23,763 bases of DNA from Kiritimatiellia bacterium. Its GTDB lineage: Bacteria > Verrucomicrobiota > Kiritimatiellia > SLAD01. This document shows, one piece after another, positions 2-22,869 of the stretch. The notes beneath the pieces were generated by a model that did not search any database, was not told where the DNA came from, and saw only the letters and a list, made by a program, of their open reading frames with translations. The position numbers and the translations under genes are program-made. The stretch is taken from the NCBI GenBank assembly GCA_007134175.1, contig SLLF01000291.1, positions 1-23,763 on the forward strand, read 5' to 3'. Every line of letters starts with the position of its first letter. Positions within the stretch are counted from its first letter, which is position 1.

Positions 2-1042
2 CACGGCCTCCTGCTGTTTGAAAGCGACCCGCCCGGAGCGGATGTACTGGTTGATGATGCCCACCGTGGCCAAACCCCGCTACTGGTGCATGACTTGCGC
101 CCGGGCACCTACCGCGTGCGCCTGCGTGCCGATGATCATTTCCCGCGCGAATTAACCATCAACGTCGAGGGCCGCACCCCGCAACGGGTCTACACGGAAC
201 TGGAATCCGACACCGCATCCCTGGCCGTCCGCACCGACCCGCCCGGCGGCCAGGTCCGCGTAGACGGCTCCACCTACGGGGTAACCCCGCTGCAAATCGA
301 TCGTGTGCGAACCGGCGAAGTGCTGGTGGAAATCACCTTGGACGGCTACCTGCCCTACCAGCGCGAACTGCGCTTGCGAACCGGACAGTCCTACCGACTT
401 GATGCCGATCTGGTGCCGGTACCCAGTGGCTTGACCGTAACCACCTCGCCCCCCGAAGCGCAGGTCTTTATCAATGACCAATTAGTCGGCGAGTCGCCGG
501 TATCCCTGACGGATCTCGCGGTGGGCACCTATACCTTGCGGGTGGCCCGCCACGGCTTTGCCGAGCAGGAGCGCGAGGTGGAACTGGGTTCCGGCGACCG
601 CCGGAGCGAGGAGTTCCGGTTGGAGCGCATCAGTGGAACCGTGGTCCTGGTGACCGAACCGGCCGGCGTCCACGTCTATCTGAACGGCGAGTTGATGGGG
701 ACCACGGAGGCGGGCCGCACCGACGTAATCTCCGAACCGTTCACCATCGATTACGTACTGGAGGGCGACCACCGGCTGCAGTTGTTGCGCTCAGGTTACC
801 ATCACCGGCCACGCCGCTTCCGCATCGAAGTGGATCAGACCCTATCGCTGCATGAACGCTTGGAACGGCAGTTCGTGCCGGACACGCGGGTGCGCACCGG
901 CAACCGCCCGGGCGAGGCGTTTACCGGGGTATTGATCCGCGAACATGCGGACGGCGGCGTCGACCTGGAAACCCGCCCGGGCATCATTATCACCTTCACT
1001 GCCGACGAAATCCAGGCTATTGAACCGCTGCGCGCCCGCTAG
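2..1042 (+). CDS. PEGA-repeat protein, 5' end outside the window
   Basis: The frame is open from the first codon of the window, so the true start lies upstream; a GTG at 86 is internal to a repeat and is not a credible start. The visible part holds four PEGA-type repeats of about 65-70 residues. Each opens with a strand followed by PPG/PPE/PAG, a 'V.(V/I)(D/N)' turn, a '(Y/L)GxTP'-like turn, and ends in 'GxYxxxxxxxGY'. The fourth repeat is longer and more diverged. The last 50 residues form a small non-PEGA beta unit (GEAFTGVLIREHADGGVDLE...). PEGA domains are surface or periplasmic beta modules, often linked to S-layer or cell-wall proteins. No membrane segment is seen in this part. The gene ends 6 bp before the convergent LolA-like gene. 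The family assignment is firm; the cellular role is unknown. Confidence 0.85.
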   Translation, partial: HGLLLFESDPPGADVLVDDAHRGQTPLLVHDLRPGTYRVRLRADDHFPRELTINVEGRTPQRVYTELESDTASLAVRTDPPGGQVRVDGSTYGVTPLQIDRVRTGEVLVEITLDGYLPYQRELRLRTGQSYRLDADLVPVPSGLTVTTSPPEAQVFINDQLVGESPVSLTDLAVGTYTLRVARHGFAEQEREVELGSGDRRSEEFRLERISGTVVLVTEPAGVHVYLNGELMGTTEAGRTDVISEPFTIDYVLEGDHRLQLLRSGYHHRPRRFRIEVDQTLSLHERLERQFVPDTRVRTGNRPGEAFTGVLIREHADGGVDLETRPGIIITFTADEIQAIEPLRAR

Positions 1043-10806: not shown

Positions 10807-11712
10807 TCAGAAAACGAATCGCGCGCTGAGCCCCACCTCCCAAGTGGTGTTCTCCGGCTCCAGAAAAACCGCGACCCCTCCGGGGGTTCGCACAAAGACC
10901 AACTCGGAATCGTCTATGTCCCAGTAGCGCACAAACGGTTCCAGCGTCCAGTCGAAGCGGCCGGTTGCGCCGCTTAGTGCGGCAGCCGCCCGGAGGCCGA
11001 AACCGTCGTTTTGTTTCTTGCGTAGCCGCGGGCCGTCAAACGGTCGCAAATCGGAAATCTGTTCCCCGGACATCAAGTGGGCGTATTCTAATGAAAACGC
11101 CCAGTGCTGGCCACCGGCCGTCTGGCGGTAATGCCGAAGCGCGACGGGCAGATAGCGGTAGGTCGATTCACGCTTGTAGCCGGCCGGATCGAACGAAGAG
11201 TCATCGTCCTTGTAGCGGTAACCAAAGCCCAGAAAGAATGCCGTGTAGGCCGTGTCGGTCATGAACGGCGCGTAGCCGGCCAACAAGCGGACTTCGTACG
11301 TGGTCGCGTCAATGCTGCTGATGGTATAGGGCGTACGGGCTTCATCCAGCAAGGCCCCGTCATAGTCGGTTTTCCCTTGCGCATAGCGCCCATGCAGCAC
11401 GAAGATAAATTGTTCGCGACGCACGCGCATCATCGGGGGTTGGTCGTCAGCCGTATCCCCCGGTTGCTCGATCTGACGCACGCGTGGGTGATAAAACGAG
11501 AGGCGGGCATCCACGCCATAAAGCCAGCCTTCCATGTCCATCAGGCCGGGCTCCTCGTAGGCATACCAAAAAAGTTCCGGCCCGATTTCAAACCGGTGCC
11601 ATGATTCCGGTTTGGCCGGAACCACTTGATCCGCGCGATCAATCGGTTCCATCTCCCCTCCCCAGACCCAGTATGGGGTACTCAAGATAAATCCCAGCAA
11701 GATAAGACGCAT
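10807..11712 (-). CDS. Outer-membrane beta-barrel protein
   Basis: The 301-residue protein begins with a signal peptide (MRLILLGFILSTPYWVWG). It continues with alternating polar/aromatic strands such as 'HRFEIGPELFWYAYEEPGL', 'AFFLGFGYRYKDDDSSF' and 'WAFSLEYAHLM'. It ends in 'TWEVGLSARFVF', a C-terminal aromatic strand typical of BAM-inserted barrels. The segment 'YEEPGLMDMEGWLYGV' resembles a group of uncharacterised barrels in diderm bacteria; no substrate can be given. I chose the ATG at 11712 because GGGGAGGAG lies five bases upstream; an in-frame start at 11733 would add seven residues (MVRGGVV) and is less likely. It converges with serS and stands as a single gene. Confidence 0.82.
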   Translation of the reverse strand: MRLILLGFILSTPYWVWGGEMEPIDRADQVVPAKPESWHRFEIGPELFWYAYEEPGLMDMEGWLYGVDARLSFYHPRVRQIEQPGDTADDQPPMMRVRREQFIFVLHGRYAQGKTDYDGALLDEARTPYTISSIDATTYEVRLLAGYAPFMTDTAYTAFFLGFGYRYKDDDSSFDPAGYKRESTYRYLPVALRHYRQTAGGQHWAFSLEYAHLMSGEQISDLRPFDGPRLRKKQNDGFGLRAAAALSGATGRFDWTLEPFVRYWDIDDSELVFVRTPGGVAVFLEPENTTWEVGLSARFVF

Positions 11713-11743
11713 AACCACTCCTCCCCTCACCATGTTCGCTTGC

Positions 11744-11829: not shown

Positions 11830-13266
11830 TCAGGCATCAAGTTTCGCCTTGAGCGCAGCGAGCACTTTCGGTGGATTCGCTTTGCCCCGACTGGCACGCA
11901 TAACCTGTCCCATGAGGAATTGAAGCGCGGCGGGCTTGCCGCCTTGATAGTCCGCTACCGACTTCGGATGGGCGGCAATGGCCGCGTCGACCCAGGCCGT
12001 CAAGGCCCCCTCATCGCTGACTTGGCTGAGCCCCTTGGCCTGCATGATAGCCACCGGATCGCCCCCCTGCTCGAAGCAAGCGGAAAAAATCGTCTTGGCG
12101 GCGGGGGTGTTGATCTGGCCTTCCTCCAGCAACTGCAAGAGGCGGGCGAGGTTTTCCGGCGTAATGCGCGCTTCGGCCAGCGTCCACTCCTTCTCGCCCA
12201 GCGCCCGTAACAGCTCCGTCATCACCCAATTGGATGCGGGTTTAGGTGCCGCGCCGGCGGCCAAGGCCGCCTCAAAAAAATCGGCCACGGCCTTGTCGGC
12301 CACAAGCACCTCCGCATCGTACGGGGGCAAACCCAAATCCGCTACAAAGCGTGCCCGCCGCTGGGCGGGCATTTCGGGTAGTGCGGCGCGCCAGGTCTCC
12401 AACGGCGACTCCTCCAGGACCACCGGTACCAAGTCCGGTTCCGGGAAGTACCGGTAATCGTGCGCATATTCCTTGCTGCGCATCGCGGAGGTCACGCCGC
12501 GCTCGTCATCCCAACGGCGCGTTTCCTGCGTGATCCGGCCACCCGCTTGCAGCACGTCGATCTGCCGCTGAATCTCGTACGTCAGCGACCGGTGCACCCC
12601 CTTGAAGGTGTTCATGTTCTTGATTTCCGTCTTGGTGCCCAGCTCCTGCTGGCCGACTGGGCGCACGCTGCAGTTGATATCGCAGCGAATATTGCCCTCC
12701 TCGAGGTTCCCGTCGGTGATGCCACCGTAGACCAGCATCTGCTTCAAGGCTTGCAGATAGGCAAACGCTTCATCGGCGGATTCAATATCCGGTTCCGACA
12801 CAATCTCCATCAGAGGCGTGCCGGCCCGGTTAAAGTCCACGCCACTGACATCCGCGAAATGGACATTTTTGGCCACATCCTCCTCCAGATGAATACGCTG
12901 GATACGGATGGTTCGCGGCTGGTCGTCGACCTCGATCGTGACAGCGCCGCCCGTACAGAGCGGCTGGTCATATTGCGAAATCTGATAGTTTTTAGGCATG
13001 TCGGGATAGAAGTAACTCTTGCGATCGAACTTGCTGCGGTAATTGATGGTGCACCCCAACAGCAAACCGGCGCAGACGGTCTGCTTTACCGCTGCTGCGT
13101 TCAGCACGGGCATGGTGCCTGGATAGCCGAGGCAGACGGGGCAGACATCGGTATTGGGGGGTCGACCGAACCGGTTGGGGCAGGTGCACCAAATCTTGGA
13201 TCGCGTCCTAAGCTGGACATGCGTCTCCAGCCCGATGCTGACCTTATAGGTCACGGGCGCGTTCAT
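11830..13266 (-). CDS. gatB: Asp-tRNA(Asn)/Glu-tRNA(Gln) amidotransferase subunit B
   Basis: The 478-residue GatB is the tRNA-binding and kinase subunit that activates the acyl group of misacylated Glu-tRNA(Gln) or Asp-tRNA(Asn). 'IGLETHVQL' (11-19) opens the cradle domain. Zinc-type cysteines C27, C29, C42 and C45 are present in 'CTCPNRFG...CPVCLGYPG'. '[18 protein letters not shown]' and '[10 protein letters not shown]' are signature stretches, and the C-terminal YqeY-like tail domain runs from about 330 to the end. The ATG at 13266 overlaps the gatA stop by four bases (ATGA). It is the last gene of gatCAB. No clear terminator follows in the 117 bp before the next gene. Confidence 0.97.
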
Positions 13267-14741
13267 GACTGGATGGCCTCCCGCCCATGGGGAGGGTGTT
13301 GTGCGCTCCAGTTAGTGGCCTGCTCATAGGCATGGCCGATCTGCAGAATCGTCGCCTCACGCAAGGCCGGTCCGAGTATCTGCAAGCCGATGGGCAACCC
13401 GGTGGTACTGAAACCACAAGGCACCGATAAACCGCAGATACCTGCGAGGTTGGCCGTAACGGTGAAGATATCCCCCAGATACATCTGCAGCGGATCGTCG
13501 ATCCGCTCGCCCAGACGATAGGCGGTGGTGGGCGCCACCGGCGTCAACAGGGCGTCACATTGGTCAAACACCCGTTCGAAATCCTGCCGGATCAGGGTGC
13601 GCACCTTCTGGGCGCGCAAGTAGTAGGCGTCGTGGTAACCGCTGCTCAGCACGTACGTGCCGAGGATGATCCGGCGTTTGACTTCCGGCCCGAAATAGGT
13701 GGCGCGGGTGCGCTGGTAGCTATCGAGCGGATCCTGCCCGGCCACGCGCGCACCATAACGTACCCCGTCGAAGCGAGCCAGGTTAGCGGACGCTTCCGCC
13801 GTGGCAATGATATAGTACGTCGCGACAGCGTACCGGGTATGTGGCAGCTGCACCTCGATGATTTCCGCGCCCAGACGACGGCATTCATCAATGGCCGCCC
13901 GTACGGCGCGGGTCACCTCCGGATCAACCCCGTCGGCAAAATATTCAGCGGGCAGGCCCAATTTCAGGCCGCCCAGTTCGGACCCCAACGCAGCGGTATA
14001 GTCCGGTACTGGAACATCCAGCGATGTGGTATCGAGCGGATCACGCCCGGCGATACACTGCAGCAGCGTGGCGGCATCCGCCACGGTACGCGTCACGGGA
14101 CCGACCTGATCAAGAGAGGAAGCGAAAGCGGTCAAGCCATACCGCGAGACGCGACCATAGGAGGGTTTCAAGCCGACGCAGCCGCAGAAGGCCGCCGGCT
14201 GGCGGATCGAACCACCGGTGTCTGTCCCCAGCGCGGCAACGGCCACACCCGCGGCCACCGCGGCGGCGGCGCCACCACTGGAGCCGCCCGCCACATGGTC
14301 TTTGTTCCACGGGTTGCGGACCGGGCCATAGGCGGAGTTTTCGTTGGTCGAACCCATGGCGAATTCGTCCATGTTCAAGCGTCCGAGCGGAATCGCACCG
14401 GCTCGGCGCAAGCGGGCCACAACCGTAGCGTCGTAGGGACTGATATACCCTTCCAGTATCCGCGAGGCGCAGTGGCATGGTTGATCCTTTACGTTCAACA
14501 CATCTTTGATGCCGATGGGCACCCCCTCCAGCGGTCCCGCCCCGGGTCGCGGCTCCGGGTCGATGCCCCCCAAGGCCTTTTGAACCTCGCCGCCATCCCA
14601 GTCAATATAGCAATTAAGGCCAGGGTTACAGCGATCAATGGCGCTTGCCAGGTTGGCCAGCAAGGACGGCAAGTTGTGGCGTGGTTTGGCCTCAAGCGCC
14701 TGCCGCCAAGCGGCAATAGTCGACGGAAAGCGGGCAGCCAT
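13263..14741 (-). CDS. gatA: Asp-tRNA(Asn)/Glu-tRNA(Gln) amidotransferase subunit A
   Basis: The 492-residue amidase-signature enzyme releases ammonia from glutamine for tRNA-dependent amidation. The Ser-cisSer-Lys triad is seen as K79 ('PIGIKDVL'), S154 ('GGSSGG') and the nucleophile S178 ('[10 protein letters not shown]'). These positions are the same numbers as in the S. aureus enzyme as I recall it. Length is normal. The gene starts 4 bp after the gatC stop and overlaps gatB by four bases, so the three subunits are translated together. Having gatCAB implies that this organism makes Gln-tRNA and/or Asn-tRNA indirectly. Confidence 0.97.
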
Positions 14742-14745
14742 ATCG

Positions 14746-15018
14746 CTATTCCAGTATACGGGGGACCATGAACAGGCCGTTACGGGCCTGTGGTGCGTTG
14801 GCCATTACCTGCTCGTGCGGCAAGCCGGGTGCGGCTTCGTCGGCGCGGAAAACATTCTGCAGTGGCAGCGCATGCGCTGTGGGCTCAACATCCGCTACAT
14901 TCAACGGGCTCAACTCCTGGACATAGTCCAGGACGTGCTGCAACTGGCCTTGGAACAAGCCGGCTTCCTCGTCGGTGAGGGACAGGCGCGCCAAATGCGC
15001 CACATACCGCACATCCAT
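14746..15018 (-). CDS. gatC: Asp-tRNA(Asn)/Glu-tRNA(Gln) amidotransferase subunit C
   Basis: The 90-residue GatC is the strap that stabilises the GatA-GatB contact. '[20 protein letters not shown]' is the conserved N-terminal helix, and '[18 protein letters not shown]' (about 54-71) and '[12 protein letters not shown]' at the end are typical. I chose the ATG at 15018 because AGGA sits six bases upstream and because the family begins there. An ATG at 15045 would add nine residues (MTTRVPGNE) and has AGGGA close by, so it cannot be excluded. The gene lies 40 bp (or 13 bp) after the TonB-like/cyclase-like gene on the same strand, so it may be read from the upstream operon. Confidence 0.9.
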
Positions 15019-15058
15019 TTCGTTTCCTGGCACCCGTGTCGTCATCGATCCCTGCCGT

Positions 15059-16498
15059 CTAGATGATTTCGATGATGACATCATCTGTATCATCTTCTTC
15101 CGGCTCGGGCTCATCCACCACGGCGAACGTCGGCAGGATGCGGTAGTAGACCTGTAAGGACAACGCCGCGAAGGTAGTGGCATAGGCCGGGCCGTAATTA
15201 ACCTCCCGCCCGCTGCCGGAGTCGAGGCTGGCCGCCGGCGGTATCCACGTACCGTCTTTATTCTGGTTTCGCACGAATTGCGGAGCAAACTGTTCATTCC
15301 ATTCCCGCCAAGCCGATCCGCCCGTCTGAAACATTACCTGGGTAATATAGTAGATCCGGTATAGGTCCCAACGCATGGGGCGTTCCCAATCCACCCGGGC
15401 CAGCTCCTGAACCAACGCCGAGCCGGCCCGCGCCTCCGGTTCACGGCCATGGCCCGTCAATTGAAAAAGCAGCGTACCGATCGCCGTCATGGCCAAATTA
15501 CGCCCCCCCATTTCGGCATAACCAAACGAGCCGTGCTCGGGATTAAACACCGTACGCAGGTCCTCGATGGCCAGCTCCATCGAACGTTCGATGCCTTCCG
15601 CCCCGCTTTCCGCCAGTTCCGCCGCCTTTAATGCTTGCACGATGAAGGCCGAAACAGAGGTGTCCCGACGTGCCCCCTGGGCAAAACTGTAATCCCAGCC
15701 GCCGGCAGGTTGCTGGCCATCGATCATGGCCTGAATCGCCCTGTCCATGGCTTCACGCACGCGGGGGATACGCGTCAGGGCATAGGCTTCTGTCAACGCA
15801 TACGCGGCAATCGCATTGCCGTACACATGATGGCTTCCCGTGTCACGGAACTGCCCATTATCGCGCTGCTGCTCCAATAAAAAGCGAATGGCCCGGCGCA
15901 CGGTATGCCCATAACGTTCCGAGGAGGTCGTTTCGCCATGGGCCAGGAAGGTCAACAAGCCCAGCCCGGTCATGGCTGACGAAGGGGCACCATGCGACCA
16001 GGAACCGTTTTCGTTCTGATTGATCCGCAACCATTCCAGGGCCCGGAGAACCGCCTGGGCCGTCTGCTCGCCCCAGCGCCCACCGTATTCCCGCAACAAA
16101 CCCGACCGGCTGGCGGCGTCCCGTCCGGAAAAGAGCCCCTGCATGATCAGGGGGCTTTCGACCTGCATCACATCCAATGCGGCGAAATCGACGTCCGGTT
16201 GGTCTTGCGTGAAGTCCATATCCTCGGGGGGGACATCCATATCCACATCAAAATCAACGTCGATATCAAAATCGAATTCCAGCGGCTCGATTTCCGGCTC
16301 AAAATCATCGAGCAGCTCATCGAGATCAACGGTCTCCATCTCCATCAGCGTGACTTCAATTTCCGGCGTCATATCACGTGTCTCGAAGACAATGAAATGG
16401 ATCGCTAGATAGACAAGCAGGATATGGAGCAGAATCGAGCCGGTTGGTCCGATCAAATGCTCCAAAACTTTTCTGCGGACATATTCGCGGCGGTTCAT
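15059..16498 (-). CDS. TonB-like N-terminus fused to terpene-cyclase-like repeat domain
   Basis: The 479-residue protein has a basic N-terminus, one membrane segment at about 19-40 and a periplasmic remainder. The membrane helix begins SILLH (S21, H25), matching the SxxxH signature that TonB-family helices use to contact ExbB/ExbD. Residues 42-115 are extremely acidic with alternating D/hydrophobic pairs. From about 138 to 460 come prenyltransferase/squalene-oxidase-type repeats: 'ALEWLRINQNENGSWS', 'FLLEQQRDNGQF', 'AIQAMIDGQQPAGGWDY', 'QFVRNQNKDGTWI'. No DxDD cyclase acid motif is apparent, so enzyme activity is doubtful. The tail is acidic (EPEPEEDDTDD). The ATG at 16498 has GGGAGG upstream; a TTG at 16519 is an alternative. 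The gene follows the second exbD by 17 bp, exactly where tonB would be. TonB-like function is inferred. Confidence 0.85.
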   Translation of the reverse strand: MNRREYVRRKVLEHLIGPTGSILLHILLVYLAIHFIVFETRDMTPEIEVTLMEMETVDLDELLDDFEPEIEPLEFDFDIDVDFDVDMDVPPEDMDFTQDQPDVDFAALDVMQVESPLIMQGLFSGRDAASRSGLLREYGGRWGEQTAQAVLRALEWLRINQNENGSWSHGAPSSAMTGLGLLTFLAHGETTSSERYGHTVRRAIRFLLEQQRDNGQFRDTGSHHVYGNAIAAYALTEAYALTRIPRVREAMDRAIQAMIDGQQPAGGWDYSFAQGARRDTSVSAFIVQALKAAELAESGAEGIERSMELAIEDLRTVFNPEHGSFGYAEMGGRNLAMTAIGTLLFQLTGHGREPEARAGSALVQELARVDWERPMRWDLYRIYYITQVMFQTGGSAWREWNEQFAPQFVRNQNKDGTWIPPAASLDSGSGREVNYGPAYATTFAALSLQVYYRILPTFAVVDEPEPEEDDTDDVIIEII

Positions 16499-17424: not shown

Positions 17425-18231
17425 TTATTCCTCCACCACTTCGACATTGCGGAAGACCTTGATCAGGTCCATGGTGGTTCCCTCCATGCCCAAGATGATC
17501 TTAGTGGCCTTATTGCGGAAGAAATAGAAGAAGGCAACCGCCGGGACGGCCACCGACAGACCGGCGGCCGTCGTAAACAGGGCTTGCGAAATATTCAACG
17601 CCAAGGCCGCCTGGCGCGCCGCCCCTTCCGCCGCTACGGCCAGCGAGGCAAAGGCGAAAATCATACCTTGCACCGTACCCAGCAGCCCGAGCATCGGCGC
17701 CAGGTTGCCGACCACGTTCAGGTAGTTGACCCGCTGCATCAGTTGTTCACCTTCCAGATCCGCTGCCACCCCAACGGCGTCCTGAATGGCTTCGAAGCCT
17801 TCCTCCACGTTGGTAAAACCGGCGGATAAAATGTTGGACAGCGGCACGGGATTGTCCTCGCAATGTTTCAGGGCTTTCATCACATCCCCCTGTTCCATCG
17901 CCGTGCGGACTTCCTCGACCAAGGAATCCGGCGCAATTTTAGCCGATCGGATGGTAATGAACGAATCCACAATCAGGGCAATCCCAGCCACCGAAGCCCC
18001 AAAAATGGCTAACCACAAAACAATGCCCAACACGCCGGCCCCGGTGACAATTTGCAGGAAACCGGGTCCCGGCACATCCGTTGCTTCCGGTTGTTCACCG
18101 CGCAATTCCATCCCCGGCGCCACTTCCTGTGCGGCTGGCGCATCGGCCTCCTGCGCCCACACCGGCCGGATGGCCACCGTGCCCATCAGTACAAACCCGC
18201 ATACCGCCAACCACCTGATCGTCTTTTGCAT
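17425..18231 (-). CDS. exbB: MotA/TolQ/ExbB-family proton channel with signal peptide
   Basis: The 268-residue protein has a cleavable-looking signal peptide (1-26, 'RPVWAQEAD' at its end) and a short periplasmic segment. Membrane helices lie at about 60-90, 170-198 and 206-238. The conserved block 'YLNVVGNLAPMLGLLGTVQGMIFAF' is split across 160-184, and 'ALFTTAAGLSVAVPAVAFFYFF' is the third helix. It forms the pentameric channel around ExbD. The signal-peptide form of ExbB is common in PVC bacteria and in Bacteroidota-like clusters. AAGGAG lies seven bases before the ATG. It starts 86 bp after the upstream TPR gene, the largest gap in this cluster. Confidence 0.93.
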   Translation of the reverse strand: MQKTIRWLAVCGFVLMGTVAIRPVWAQEADAPAAQEVAPGMELRGEQPEATDVPGPGFLQIVTGAGVLGIVLWLAIFGASVAGIALIVDSFITIRSAKIAPDSLVEEVRTAMEQGDVMKALKHCEDNPVPLSNILSAGFTNVEEGFEAIQDAVGVAADLEGEQLMQRVNYLNVVGNLAPMLGLLGTVQGMIFAFASLAVAAEGAARQAALALNISQALFTTAAGLSVAVPAVAFFYFFRNKATKIILGMEGTTMDLIKVFRNVEVVEE

Positions 18232-18317: not shown

Positions 18318-19130
18318 CTAGAGCCGGGCTTGTGCCCGGGCTGCGAACGGCGAATCGCGATGGTCGCCCACCACCTTACGGAACATCTCGCGGGCGCGTC
18401 CGTCCCGCAGTTCCTCCAACACAACACCGGCCTTGTATAGCGCTTCGGCGCGCGCTTCGCGCTCGGTTTGGAACAACACCGCCGTGCGCAGATAGTCCAG
18501 CAGCGCATCCTCCGCGCGCCCGCGTTGCCGTTTCACATCCCCGCGCATTACCTGCGCAAGCGCGGCATCCGCCCGGGAACCTTCGCGGGCCAAGGCGTCC
18601 AATTCACGTTCCAGCCGATCCAGTTGGCCGGTGCCCAACATCGCCCGGTAGTAGGGCCAGCGGGCCGCCGGATCCTCCCGCCGTGCCGCATTGGTCTGGA
18701 ATAGCCGGTTAAAAGTCGCCAGGGCCGCATCATAGTCTTCCTTGCCCAGTTGGGCCCGGCCAATCAACACCAGTGCCTCCAGGTCCCAGGAAAGGAACTG
18801 GTATTCGGTAACGACATTCTGCAGCTCACTAACGACCCGGTCATACTGGCCCTGCTGCAGCGCGCGCTGGGCTTGGTCCAGCACCCGCGGACGCACGGCC
18901 ACGGCCTCGCGATACTGGTTGCGGGCAAACGTCAAATCGCCGCGCTCGGTGGTCAGTATGATATCCCCGTTGCGACGCGCGCGAATGGCGGAGCCCTCAA
19001 TGCGGCGGCCATCCTGCAACACCACGTACGGCCGCTCCGCTCCCACGGCAGAGAGGGCCAACAGGCCCACGACCAAAATCACTAACCCTGCTGACCACTT
19101 CCGGCTTGTCATTATTCCCGTTGTTCTCAT
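18318..19130 (-). CDS. Periplasmic TPR protein with N-terminal beta unit
   Basis: The 270-residue product has a signal peptide (hydrophobic core about 14-30, 'LSAVGAERP' at the cut). A small beta unit follows at about 33-68 ('YVVLQDGRRIEGSAIRARRN' then 'DIILTTERGDLTFA'). Tetratricopeptide-like helix pairs fill the rest, with 'AQRALQQGQYDRVVSELQNV', 'ARAEALYKAGVVLEELRDGRAREMF' and similar. I chose the ATG at 19130, with GAGGAG eight bases upstream; a GTG at 19139 is too close to that site. It probably lies in the periplasm as a partner of the Exb-type complex encoded next to it. It starts 21 bp after the large TPR gene. No enzymatic motif is seen. Confidence 0.82.
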   Translation of the reverse strand: MRTTGIMTSRKWSAGLVILVVGLLALSAVGAERPYVVLQDGRRIEGSAIRARRNGDIILTTERGDLTFARNQYREAVAVRPRVLDQAQRALQQGQYDRVVSELQNVVTEYQFLSWDLEALVLIGRAQLGKEDYDAALATFNRLFQTNAARREDPAARWPYYRAMLGTGQLDRLERELDALAREGSRADAALAQVMRGDVKRQRGRAEDALLDYLRTAVLFQTEREARAEALYKAGVVLEELRDGRAREMFRKVVGDHRDSPFAARAQARL

Positions 19131-19151
19131 GGCGTTCACTCCTCTGTTAAT

Positions 19152-21932
19152 TTATTGGACGGCCCGACGGCGGGCATCGGCGCGCATCCGCCGCACCTCA
19201 TCCACAAACGATCCCTGCGCAAAGTCATCCAGATACTGCACACTCACATCTTCCACATCCTGGTACAGTTCCAGTTCCATCATCAGCTCTAAACTCTGCC
19301 ACAAGCTCTGTTCGATGATCGGCCGCAGCTCACGGTCCGTGGGGTCCTGAAGCAGCGCGATGCGCTGAAACGACGCCAAGGCGGCATTGCGGTCCCCCTC
19401 CAGTTGCTGGACTTCCGCCAACTTGAATTGCGCCCGCTGATTGGTCAGGTTATCGGGGGCGACCCGCAGAATGTCGCCCAGCACGCGGCGCGCCTCGCGG
19501 TATTGCGCCAGATCGCGATGCGCAGCGGCCAACAAGAAGCGGGCATCGAACAGGTAGGCGGTGTTGGGAAAACGCTCAATTAATTCAGTAAATACCGTGA
19601 CAGCCTGCTCGTGCTCGCCTTGATGATGATAGGCGGAGCCGAGCCCGAATTTGGCGAGTTCCAGCATCCGACGTTCATCGGTCGAATCCACCACCCGCCG
19701 GTAGGCCGGGATCACCTCCTCGTACAACCCGTTATCCAGCATGAGCTGACCGATCCGCGTGAATTCTTCGGCGGAATGATCTTCCGGGGTGCGCATCATC
19801 CGGCGGAACGCGTCCCGCGCAATGTCCGGACGGTCGATCTCGAAGGCGGCACTGACCAAGGCGAACAAGGCGCTGCGCCCCTCCTCGGAATCGGGATAGC
19901 GTTCCGCCAGCGCTTCGAACGTCGCGGCGGCCTCGGTGGATCGCTCCAGCTCCAACTGGATCGCCCCCTTGTCGCGCATAGCCGTGGGGGCCAGACTTGA
20001 TTCCGGATGCCGCTCCAGGAACTGGGCATAGGTCGTAATGGCCCGATCCCGGAAGTCCGGAATCCGTTCGGCCGGCTCCCGTGCACGGGCTAGATTATAA
20101 CCGACAAAGAACAAGGCGCGCTCCGCAAAGCGCGCGTTGCGCTCCGCATCTTCCGGGCGGGCGTTATCCGGCGCATCTTCCGCCCGGAGCCAACGCAGGA
20201 GCTGGCCATACGCCTGCACCGCTTGTGGATATTGTTGCAGTCGTTGATATGAATCGCCGACCAGAAACTGGGCGCGTACCCGCTCGTGGCCCGGCGGTGC
20301 TTCGGCCACGTAGCGCGTCAGGTACTCAATCGCCTGCTCATAGTCCTCGATTTCATGCGAACTGATGGCCATGGCGAACAGTGCCCGGAGGAAATTCCGG
20401 TCACGCGGATAGTTTTCCACGATCCGCTGGTAATACCCCATGGCCGCCGCGCGCTCGCCGACCGCCTCACGCCGCCGCGCCATATCGAATAACAGGGCCG
20501 GGGCCCGTTCGTGCTCCGGGAACCCGGAAAAATAGATATCGAAGAAGGCATAATACATCTCTTCGTTGTCCTTCTCCACATACTCACGACCGCCAATGAG
20601 CAACGCGCGCGCCGCAATCTCGTCCCCAGCAAACCGCTCCGCCAAATATTCCGCCACCATCCGCGCATGGAGTTCATCGCCGGACCGCACGTAGCTCAGC
20701 AACAGGTTGGCCAAGGCGCGCAGCGAGGGCTCCCCCTCGGGGAACGCATTCAAAATGCGCAGGTACTCCTTGATCGCGGCGGGGTAATCGCGCTGCCGGA
20801 ACAGGTCGTCGGCATGCGTAAACTGCGCCTGGGCCGCCTGGCCGACATGGTCGCCGAAGTCTACATTCACGCGCCGACCGTACTCCCCTTCCAGCAAGGC
20901 CACCAGCGCCCGTCCGCGCATACCGGCCTCACCGCCCCACTCACTCATGCCGTAACGGCCGAACACATTGTAGAATTCAGTCAACGCCTGTTGGATAACG
21001 GGTAGCACCTCAGCTTCCGGTGCCCCGCGTTCCCGCAGTGCCCGGGCCTCTTTCTCGTGCAGCTCGCCCAGCAGAAAGCGGGCCGCCGCCACCGGGCTCA
21101 TGACCGGCGGCACGTTCTGCTCGCGCAACACCTGGTCCAGCCGGTTTAAATCCGACCGGTAACGAAGCAGCAGTTCACGGGCACCCGCCTCGTTATCGCG
21201 CGCCAGCTCCACGTGGGCCATGGTACTGATCGCATGGCCGAACCAGAGGTCGTAGCCCCCCCACGTGATCTCGTCAGCCATTGCGAACGCTTGGTCCAGG
21301 TACTCTTTGCGCTGGTCGCCTTCAGCGTCGCGTCCCAGCCGCAGTAGCAACCGAGCCACATCGTGCATTAACCGCCGCTGCGCACCGCTATCGTCCAAGC
21401 CCGCTGCCAGCAAACGGCGGTAGGCCGCCACGGCCCCGGCGCGGTCCCCCATCCGTTCCAGCATTTGGCCATAGCGGTACGCGGCATCCTGGAAGAATTC
21501 AAGCAGGTCAGGGTCCTCGGGCGCTTCATCCGCGTAGTCCGCAAAGAAAGCCTCATACAAGCGACGCGCCTCCTCTACTTCACCCGCCCGGAACAACCCA
21601 TTGGCAATTCGCAATTGCAACGCATACCGCTGGGCGTGCTCTTCCGGCATGGTGGCTACCAGCTCCTCGGCTTCTTTAAATCGCCGCTGGGCAATCAGGA
21701 TTTCGCCCTGGATGCGCGTGGCGCGCTGCTGTTCCCCGGGATGCAAGCGCAACACGTTCTGCACCACCCGGTTGGCGTAATCGGCGAAACCCAGTTCGAC
21801 CAAACCAGACGCGAAAGCAAACTCCCGGTCCACATCCATGGCGGCCTGCGCGGACAAGGCCGCCGCCAGCCCCCAGGCGCACAACCCGCAAATCGCCCGT
21901 CCACAAAATCTTCTCACGCTAAACCCTTTCAT
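19152..21932 (-). CDS. Large periplasmic TPR protein
   Basis: The 926-residue product has a signal peptide (MKGFSVRRFCGRAICGLCAW..., ending near 'LSAQAAM' at about 32). Nearly the whole mature part is tetratricopeptide/Sel1-like helical hairpins. Clear examples are 'QAQFTHADDLFRQRDYPAAI' (about 390), 'ALFAMAISSHEIEDYEQAIEYL' (about 535), 'AFGLGSAYHHQGEHEQAV'-type and 'FLLAAAHRDLAQYREARRVL' near the end. Such proteins scaffold other periplasmic or outer-membrane proteins. I chose the ATG at 21932 with AGGA six bases upstream. It is the first gene of the exb cluster, after a strong candidate promoter at 21997-22025. Its partner and cargo are unknown. The overall role may resemble the TPR protein CpoB/YbgF next to Tol-Pal, but size and sequence differ. 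Confidence 0.85.
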   Translation of the reverse strand: MKGFSVRRFCGRAICGLCAWGLAAALSAQAAMDVDREFAFASGLVELGFADYANRVVQNVLRLHPGEQQRATRIQGEILIAQRRFKEAEELVATMPEEHAQRYALQLRIANGLFRAGEVEEARRLYEAFFADYADEAPEDPDLLEFFQDAAYRYGQMLERMGDRAGAVAAYRRLLAAGLDDSGAQRRLMHDVARLLLRLGRDAEGDQRKEYLDQAFAMADEITWGGYDLWFGHAISTMAHVELARDNEAGARELLLRYRSDLNRLDQVLREQNVPPVMSPVAAARFLLGELHEKEARALRERGAPEAEVLPVIQQALTEFYNVFGRYGMSEWGGEAGMRGRALVALLEGEYGRRVNVDFGDHVGQAAQAQFTHADDLFRQRDYPAAIKEYLRILNAFPEGEPSLRALANLLLSYVRSGDELHARMVAEYLAERFAGDEIAARALLIGGREYVEKDNEEMYYAFFDIYFSGFPEHERAPALLFDMARRREAVGERAAAMGYYQRIVENYPRDRNFLRALFAMAISSHEIEDYEQAIEYLTRYVAEAPPGHERVRAQFLVGDSYQRLQQYPQAVQAYGQLLRWLRAEDAPDNARPEDAERNARFAERALFFVGYNLARAREPAERIPDFRDRAITTYAQFLERHPESSLAPTAMRDKGAIQLELERSTEAAATFEALAERYPDSEEGRSALFALVSAAFEIDRPDIARDAFRRMMRTPEDHSAEEFTRIGQLMLDNGLYEEVIPAYRRVVDSTDERRMLELAKFGLGSAYHHQGEHEQAVTVFTELIERFPNTAYLFDARFLLAAAHRDLAQYREARRVLGDILRVAPDNLTNQRAQFKLAEVQQLEGDRNAALASFQRIALLQDPTDRELRPIIEQSLWQSLELMMELELYQDVEDVSVQYLDDFAQGSFVDEVRRMRADARRRAVQ

Positions 21933-21996
21933 CTCGTGTCCTGCCGCGATAACATTGGCACCGTCGCCGCCCAACCCCAAGTCCATATACCGCGGC

Positions 21997-22431: not shown

Positions 22432-22869
22432 TCAGGGGTGCGGTTTACCGCGTGCACTGGAGTTGTCTGGTTCGATCCAGTCTTCAATCCTGAGATCGGG
22501 CACACGCTTGAATTCCTTGGTGGTATTCGTGACCAAGGTGAGGCCTTGATAGAGCGCGTGCGCGGCGAGAAGCAGGTCGTAGCTTCCTATAGGGGTTCCA
22601 GCACGCTGAAGGGAGGCCCTGATGTCCCCATATATCAGGGAAGCGCCGGCAGGAAAGTCCATGACATCAAGCGGACCGAGAAACTTGGTCAGCGCAAGCT
22701 GGTTCATCTCCCGTTTGACGCTGTTGGAAACGCCGAACTGCAGTTCACAGAACGTAATTGCCGAAATGCCGACATCCCCGATGCGGAGTTTCCTGAAGCG
22801 TTCATACACGTGTTCAGGTGAACGCTTTATGATGTAGATACAGGTATTGGTGTCCAGAAGGTATCGCAT
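22432..22869 (-). CDS. vapC: VapC-type PIN-domain toxin ribonuclease
   Basis: The 145-residue PIN-domain protein is the toxin of a type II toxin-antitoxin pair; family members cut initiator tRNA or other structured RNA. The acidic site is visible: D6 in 'YLLDTNTCIYIIK', E42 in 'ITFCELQFGV' and D98 in 'GSYDLLLAAHAL', with N115 in 'LVTNTTKEF' at the fourth position, as usual for the tRNA(fMet)-type VapC group. The last 12 residues extend past the usual end. The ATG shares a base with the vapB stop (TGATG), so both are translated together. The site looks intact, so the toxin is probably active. Confidence 0.93.
   Translation of the reverse strand: MRYLLDTNTCIYIIKRSPEHVYERFRKLRIGDVGISAITFCELQFGVSNSVKREMNQLALTKFLGPLDVMDFPAGASLIYGDIRASLQRAGTPIGSYDLLLAAHALYQGLTLVTNTTKEFKRVPDLRIEDWIEPDNSSARGKPHP

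Follow-up and report, generated by a model that had tools for sequence, protein, structure and literature searches.

Proton motors of the ExbB/ExbD type drive TonB or TolA through a single helix, and the textbook examples of what the ExbB/TolQ/MotA motor family drives are TonB, TolA and MotB. In TonB and TolA a further segment, the D-box or motor box, adds a strand to ExbD. According to the sections of PMC12215075 drawn on here, TonB and TolA dock on ExbB and TolQ through an SHLS motif, the Leu and second Ser of which are less well conserved for Ton; in those of PMC10907165, an ExbD dimer captures the D-box peptide of E. coli TonB, QPISVTMVTPAD, via alternate hydrophobic residues. Motor-driven force transducers headed by a von Willebrand factor A (vWA) domain and encoded in a similar cassette have also been described (Williams-Jones et al. 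2025, PMC12204202); in the main text of that paper, tetratricopeptide repeat (TPR), tolQ-like and two tolR-like genes lie directly upstream of the transducer gene, and the vWA fold is presented as best known for adhesion and protein contacts.

Here we describe a cassette of this kind with a different head, from a Kiritimatiellia bacterium (assembly GCA_007134175.1, contig SLLF01000291.1, positions 1 to 23,763, the whole of which is called the window). Its last gene encodes a barrel-headed protein that is probably a TonB/TolA-like force transducer, with the outer-membrane-binding domain swapped for a barrel gripping head and driven by a dedicated ExbB/ExbD motor; we put the probability of this at about 0.7. 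It is favoured because the cassette, a Ser/His pair in the N-terminal helix, a D-box-like segment and the motor residues are all conserved, and because of the ExbB lineage, the predicted fold of the head, the existence of vWA-headed sister systems and the occurrence of chimeras between the two.

The product consists of a membrane helix, a D-box-like segment, an acidic disordered linker, an (alpha/alpha)6 barrel and a disordered tail (Table 1). A reading of this DNA from its letters alone (the sequence-only reading) had placed the gene correctly; it is read on the minus strand, and GGGAGGTG directly precedes its ATG. Searches in which 7996 candidates were scored returned 477 homologues at E <= 0.001, and because of these the combination of Ser/His helix and barrel is, to judge from sequence comparison, not a product of chance. 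Motif counts below refer to the 120 homologues listed among these matches and residue percentages to an alignment of 84 homologues (A2). The TonB-like S21/H25 signature pointed out in the sequence-only reading is present, H25 being found in 100% and S21 in 99% of the aligned homologues. SxxxH occurs within the first 70 residues of 117 of 120; of the remaining three, P0085 carries TxxxH, and the starts of P0054 and P0064 fall within the helix or past it. Among 98 distinct long barrel open reading frames (ORFs) from the loci surveyed below, the pair lies in the most hydrophobic early segment in 86, is replaced by T or A with His in three (L066, L075, L041), and is hidden with the helix by a wrong mechanical ORF start in three more (L038, L089, L099). 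A looser count, SxxxH anywhere in the first 130 residues, gave 80 of 85 motor-linked ORFs, with L121 as a false positive.

The segment PEIEVTLME follows the helix. By eye, its I47, V49 and L51 follow the alternation of hydrophobic residues seen in the E. coli D-box, which makes it the putative equivalent of that element. The surrounding linker, described as acidic in the sequence-only reading, contains 30 D/E and a single K/R in 85 residues, in contrast to the proline-rich linker of TonB. Structure prediction of the protein alone yielded the anticipated alpha/alpha barrel at high confidence; in fold comparisons of the model it lay nearest to squalene-hopene cyclase, with sugar epimerases almost as near. 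PF13243 matched at 35.5 bits (cut-off 26.1), and four QxxxGxW-type motifs, where four or more had been claimed, start at residues 161, 210, 262 and 412, the second ending in F and being one residue longer. The TonB C-terminal domain PF03544 gave no Pfam match at E <= 1, in keeping with the proposal that the barrel stands in its place. CGEQ is the thioester motif of the alpha-macroglobulin thioester domain. A complement-like thioester domain, offered in the sequence-only reading as another source of the repeats, found no support: PF07678 scored 18.4 against a cut-off of 22 bits, and CGEQ was found in 0 of 120 listed homologues. Pectic acid lyase (PF09492) was set aside, its 24.8 bits exceeding the cut-off of 22 yet covering only 30 of 292 profile positions. 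In the tail, which ends DDVIIEII, D473 is kept in 86%, V474 in 74%, I476 in 77% and I478 in 87% of homologues; a very loose pattern was matched by 119 of 120. The tail takes the form DDVxIEII or, in many Lentisphaerae, a DDDLGLDL-like one.

In the window the cassette runs TPR (a 944-residue ORF), TPR (273 residues), exbB, exbD, exbD and the barrel gene, followed by gatC, gatA and gatB. The order of the last four cassette genes and the 17-bp gap behind the second exbD agree with the sequence-only reading, and all three motor genes scored above the Pfam gathering thresholds. The large TPR ORF is probably over-extended at its N-terminus; by eye it has a signal-peptide-like stretch, and the small TPR protein a signal-peptide-like N-terminus. 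The neighbourhood was surveyed in 100 fetched loci and the window, which together gave 114 barrel ORFs; the fetched loci were the best 80 of 128 relatives (L051-L130) and 20 stretches around matches, nearly all of them strong (L031-L050), sets that partly overlap, were chosen among the strongest matches and favour close relatives. The cassette proved to be conserved: distinct barrel genes for which 7 kb or more of upstream sequence was available number 65, and 59 of them have the full set of two TPR genes, one exbB and two exbD within 9 kb upstream on the same strand. Apart from the barrel gene, nothing in these cassettes was recognisable as a transducer gene. As gatC follows in few relatives (six gatC matches), the gat genes are not part of the system.

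The motor subunits retain the pore threonines, the proline and the proton-site Asp of ExbB/TolQ-ExbD/TolR motors. In cassette ExbBs the pore residues Thr186 and Thr221 are each kept in 67 of 67 and Pro230 of the third transmembrane helix in 66 of 67 aligned; of the two TonB/TolA contacts, the serine aligned with TolQ Ser28 is kept in 62 of 66, the tryptophan is not. The proton-site Asp is present in both ExbDs of the window and, by pattern, in 156 of 162 from the examined loci; the six misses comprise one variant motif with Asp, one unrelated exbD and four ORFs that are truncated. In a tree of 64 ExbB sequences, several of which have long branches, 28 of the 29 barrel-linked ExbBs entered, together with 11 from the head-search stretches described below, formed one clade (96/95), the long-branch L095 being the exception. 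Beside it lay a group (99/98) of the ExbBs of L185, L192 and L193, within a 99/85 clade of which L175 is a further member; the TonB_C-linked motors (L162, L169) and those of the C214-type cluster (L164, L167) were placed elsewhere. On this tree the cassette motor is an ExbB lineage apart from the TonB_C-linked and Tol-like motors of its own genome. The Ton-type locus of the source genome (L162) contains two consecutive ExbB-like genes, followed by exbD and by genes for two further proteins, one with TonB_C and one TPR-like. Another conserved cluster, exbB-exbD-large TPR (~780-820 residues), was seen in L163, L168, L172, L173, L177 and L179; the ExbBs of this cluster group in a separate clade, and no transducer gene was recognised alongside.

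In a search for other heads, 20 stretches were taken in which the small TPR gene did not adjoin any known barrel gene, or which came from genomes lacking a barrel match. One of them has a barrel (L183) and one a weak barrel match (L184), while L193 has a vWA protein, L185 a DUF4159 protein and L192 a 396-residue protein to which no fold was assigned. Contig ends cut L182 and L196. In L186-L190, whose genomes gave no barrel match at the threshold applied, motor genes did not accompany the small TPR gene; in four of these five it stands beside a gene that is murC-like by eye. The L193 protein looks like a vWA-headed transducer in its model (mean predicted local distance difference test score (pLDDT) 73.7): the top fold match was an inter-alpha-inhibitor heavy chain, with LapA vWFA and von Willebrand A1 lower, at low TM-scores and with some unrelated rows among them. 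Pfam found no vWA domain in it, and among the 120 homologues listed for it, two bear the name VWA or VWFA domain-containing. Relatives are encoded next to exbB and exbD genes in L202 and L203, and vWA-type members follow TPR/exbB/exbD cassettes in L193 and L202. In L185 the genes TPR-exbB-exbD-exbD are followed by one whose product has a hydrophobic stretch at its N-terminus and carries the DUF4159 domain (PF13709, E 2.7e-30).

The last gene of L204, which follows TPR-TPR-exbB-exbD-exbD, joins the two types. The vWA-transducer profile matches its helix and linker (20-147, i-E 2.4e-12), and the barrel profile, from its position 55 onwards, matches its linker and barrel (i-E 3e-102); the same chimera occurs in L205 with motor genes and in L201 without them. 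These chimeras, joining a vWA-type helix and linker to a barrel, provide the strongest evidence for a modular protein whose arm and head can be separated.

By analogy with TonB and TolA, the protein most likely works as they do, with a different hand. The N-terminal helix would dock outside the dedicated ExbB pentamer via S21/H25, and the two different ExbDs would capture the D-box-like segment with their periplasmic portions. Proton flow through ExbB/ExbD could then pull or release the acidic linker, and hence the barrel, which would grip a ligand or partner at the opposite side of the periplasm. The two TPR proteins are likely adaptors, and the acidic C-terminal tail may be a second contact; that the TPR proteins hold this acidic-hydrophobic tail is a guess. 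Sister systems pair a related chassis with a vWA head.

Several observations weigh against such a transducer. Ala32 and Ile36 occupy the places of the Leu and second Ser of SHLS, and TolQ Trp32, which touches the transducer His, is not kept, its column holding V/A/I/L with Trp in the next column in 25 of 66. The D-box-like segment has pLDDT < 50 and forms no strand in the AlphaFold2 model. The helix has no His in six of the 98 barrel ORFs (L037, L049, L121, L122, L126, L129), four of which directly follow exbD, while L129 directly precedes a TPR-TPR-B-D-D set; because of these and the T/A variants, docking through the pair is, on sequence evidence, not universal in the barrel family. No SxxxH was seen in the DUF4159 protein of L185. 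Six of the 65 barrel genes (L036, L042, L049, L071, L082, L103) are without the full set; all except L049 keep SxxxH, and the 9.0-9.9 kb upstream of these five are free of cassette genes. Finally, no head was recognised beside the motor in eight of the 20 stretches (L181, L191, L194, L195, L197, L198, L199, L200). Six of these eight genomes have barrel genes elsewhere, and those of L042 (G020) and L082 carry a head-less cassette on the same contig (L194, L195). Head and motor can therefore be encoded apart.

An alternative, which we regard as unlikely, is that the barrel is a periplasmic enzyme, acting on terpenoids or glycans or resembling a sugar epimerase, which the motor only positions or energises conformationally. 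The protein shares the (alpha/alpha)6 barrel and QW motifs with squalene-hopene and other class II terpene cyclases, but it has one barrel, is tethered to the membrane beside a proton motor and does not conserve DxDD. The query has this motif only at 470, in the disordered tail, and none in the barrel; beyond residue 110, 23 of 120 listed homologues carry it, in the tail in 21, as DWDD near 370 in five and at 227 in one (some have two). In these sequences, then, the catalytic motif is not conserved in the barrel, as its absence from view in the sequence-only reading had hinted. No NCBIfam model reached its cut-off (pectate lyase TIGR02474, 22.4 against 189.8 bits), and AGE-type sugar 2-epimerases and GH76 mannanases gave no sequence match at the thresholds used. 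On the inner helices, as laid out in the AlphaFold2 model, H187, Y226, Y233, E237, S281, Q288, K291, Y383, Y384 and Q387 are invariant (100% of 84) and Y380 is kept in 95%. The helix pattern suggests that many of these residues may face the barrel cavity; if they do, the cavity would be polar and would fit a sugar-like or charged ligand better than squalene. The vWA heads of the sister transducers, whose fold is known for adhesion and protein contacts (main text of PMC12204202), favour gripping over catalysis. The binding of cell-wall or surface polymers, as put forward in the sequence-only reading, is a guess.

It is less probable still that the barrel protein is a sensor or regulator that gates proton flow according to the state of the envelope and is not itself pulled. 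The same architecture would serve, a feedback of transducer tension on the motor, by way of conserved Ser, Trp and Pro, has been proposed (in the part of PMC12215075 drawn on here), and some cassettes have no adjoining head gene; against this, the barrel cassettes contain no other recognised load-bearing transducer gene, and the barrel gene occupies the position of the published vWA transducers. Least probable is a plain membrane-anchored periplasmic protein sharing an operon with the motor, for which the six His-less helices and short barrel frames (~330-390 residues, in several genomes, possibly soluble relatives) could speak, but which fits poorly with the retained gene order, with the conservation of the Ser/His pair and D-box-like segment in an otherwise variable N-terminus, and with chimeras that keep a transducer module on the barrel.

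The barrel-headed protein shares with TonB and TolA the single N-terminal SxxxH helix, the disordered linker and the adjoining ExbB/ExbD genes, and resembles them in its D-box-like segment; it differs from them in having no TonB_C match and no known outer-membrane partner, and in an operon with two different ExbDs and two TPR proteins. The vWA transducers of PMC12204202, as given in its main text, are alike in the S/H helix, motor box (here a D-box-like segment), disordered linker, non-TonB globular head, occurrence in the Planctomycetes-Verrucomicrobia-Chlamydiae group and upstream TPR, exbB and two exbD genes, and differ in the head, which there is a vWA fold and here an (alpha/alpha)6 barrel. 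That main text, to which the comparison is limited, does not mention a barrel head (no squalene, toroid, terpen or cyclase). The earlier claim of a different kind of energised machine needs softening, because a comparable cassette with a vWA head had already been published. Our best reading is of a single proton-motor chassis on which periplasmic heads can be exchanged, with the barrel as the head that grips the load. Much more tentatively, and at less than even odds, the chassis may be general (ExbB, two ExbDs and two TPR proteins) with interchangeable helical barrel, vWA and perhaps DUF4159 heads, the barrel acting as a proton-powered hand that seizes and releases a polar ligand such as a glycan and moves or strains it across the envelope. 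If true, this would be periplasmic work unlike TonB-type import or Tol-type membrane tethering. An enzyme-like barrel as motor output, together with the arm/head chimeras, suggests that the ExbB-type motor is a modular power source serving as yet unknown envelope jobs in Kiritimatiellota, Lentisphaerota and other Verrucomicrobiota.

In a sample of 194 genomes, all from within the phylum, barrel matches at E <= 1e-20 were found in 81, one to six in each and some covering the barrel only; the small TPR protein was found in 78 at E <= 1e-6 and the vWA-transducer profile in 36. Named records were mostly Kiritimatiellae, Lentisphaerae, Victivallales, Oligosphaeraceae and other Verrucomicrobia-related metagenome-assembled genomes, with one labelled Neomarinimicrobiota (L063), possibly mis-binned. 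The question is open to experiment because a named strain, Oligosphaera ethanolica DSM 24202 (L113), carries the full cassette.

Table 1. Positions of the features, in the window unless a locus is named
Feature	Position	Strand	Basis or remark
Barrel-headed transducer, 479 residues	15059..16498	minus	ATG at 16498, stop codon 15059-15061; profile/homologue searches, AlphaFold2
Transmembrane helix, residues 18-35	16394..16447	minus	AlphaFold2 helix
S21xxxH25, first half of SHLS motor-docking motif	16424..16438	minus	conservation in 84 homologues
Acidic linker, mostly disordered, residues 39-123 (includes D-box-like segment)	16130..16384	minus	pLDDT < 50 for most
D-box (motor box)-like segment PEIEVTLME, residues 45-53	16340..16366	minus	E48 98%, V49 92%, E53 89% (84 homologues)
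(alpha/alpha)6 barrel head, about residues 128-455	15134..16117	minus	predicted fold, high confidence
Disordered C-terminal tail, residues 456-479	15062..15133	minus	low pLDDT
Second ExbD/TolR subunit, Asp24 in TPMIDIVF	16516..16932	minus	PF02472 E 6.1e-20
First ExbD/TolR subunit, Asp25 in TPMIDIVF	16952..17386	minus	PF02472 E 1.7e-21; aligned with ExbD of solved motors
ExbB/TolQ subunit	17425..18231	minus	PF01618 E 1.9e-24
Small TPR protein, second gene	18318..19139	minus	TPR_6 E 3.2e-7
Large TPR protein, first cassette gene	19152..21986	minus	TPR_6 E 1.7e-35; matching TPR gene in same place in relatives
gatC, gatA, gatB after cassette	14746-15048, 13263-14741, 11830-13266	minus	adjoin directly
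Incomplete ORF	2-1042		four PEGA-domain stretches
LolA-like outer membrane lipoprotein-sorting protein	1049-1849	minus
308-residue protein	10807-11733	minus	no Pfam match at E <= 0.001; outer-membrane beta-barrel-like by eye
PIN-domain protein	22432-22869	minus	VapC-like
Chimeras	L204 6984-8885, L201 7462-9354, L205 7479-9314	minus	proline-rich N-terminal extension before helix
DUF4159 protein	L185 5855-7465	minus
Barrel protein of G024	L049 9434-10936	minus
exbB-exbD-large TPR cluster	L163 3741-7352 (G000:C210)
Ton-type locus of source genome	L162 2641-7243 (G000:C208)

In the 19.5-kb stretch around the barrel gene of L049, whose product has a helix without the Ser/His pair, no motor gene was recognised. 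Other genomes of the same genus contain two or three consecutive barrel genes, for example at G111:C2:169611-174204.
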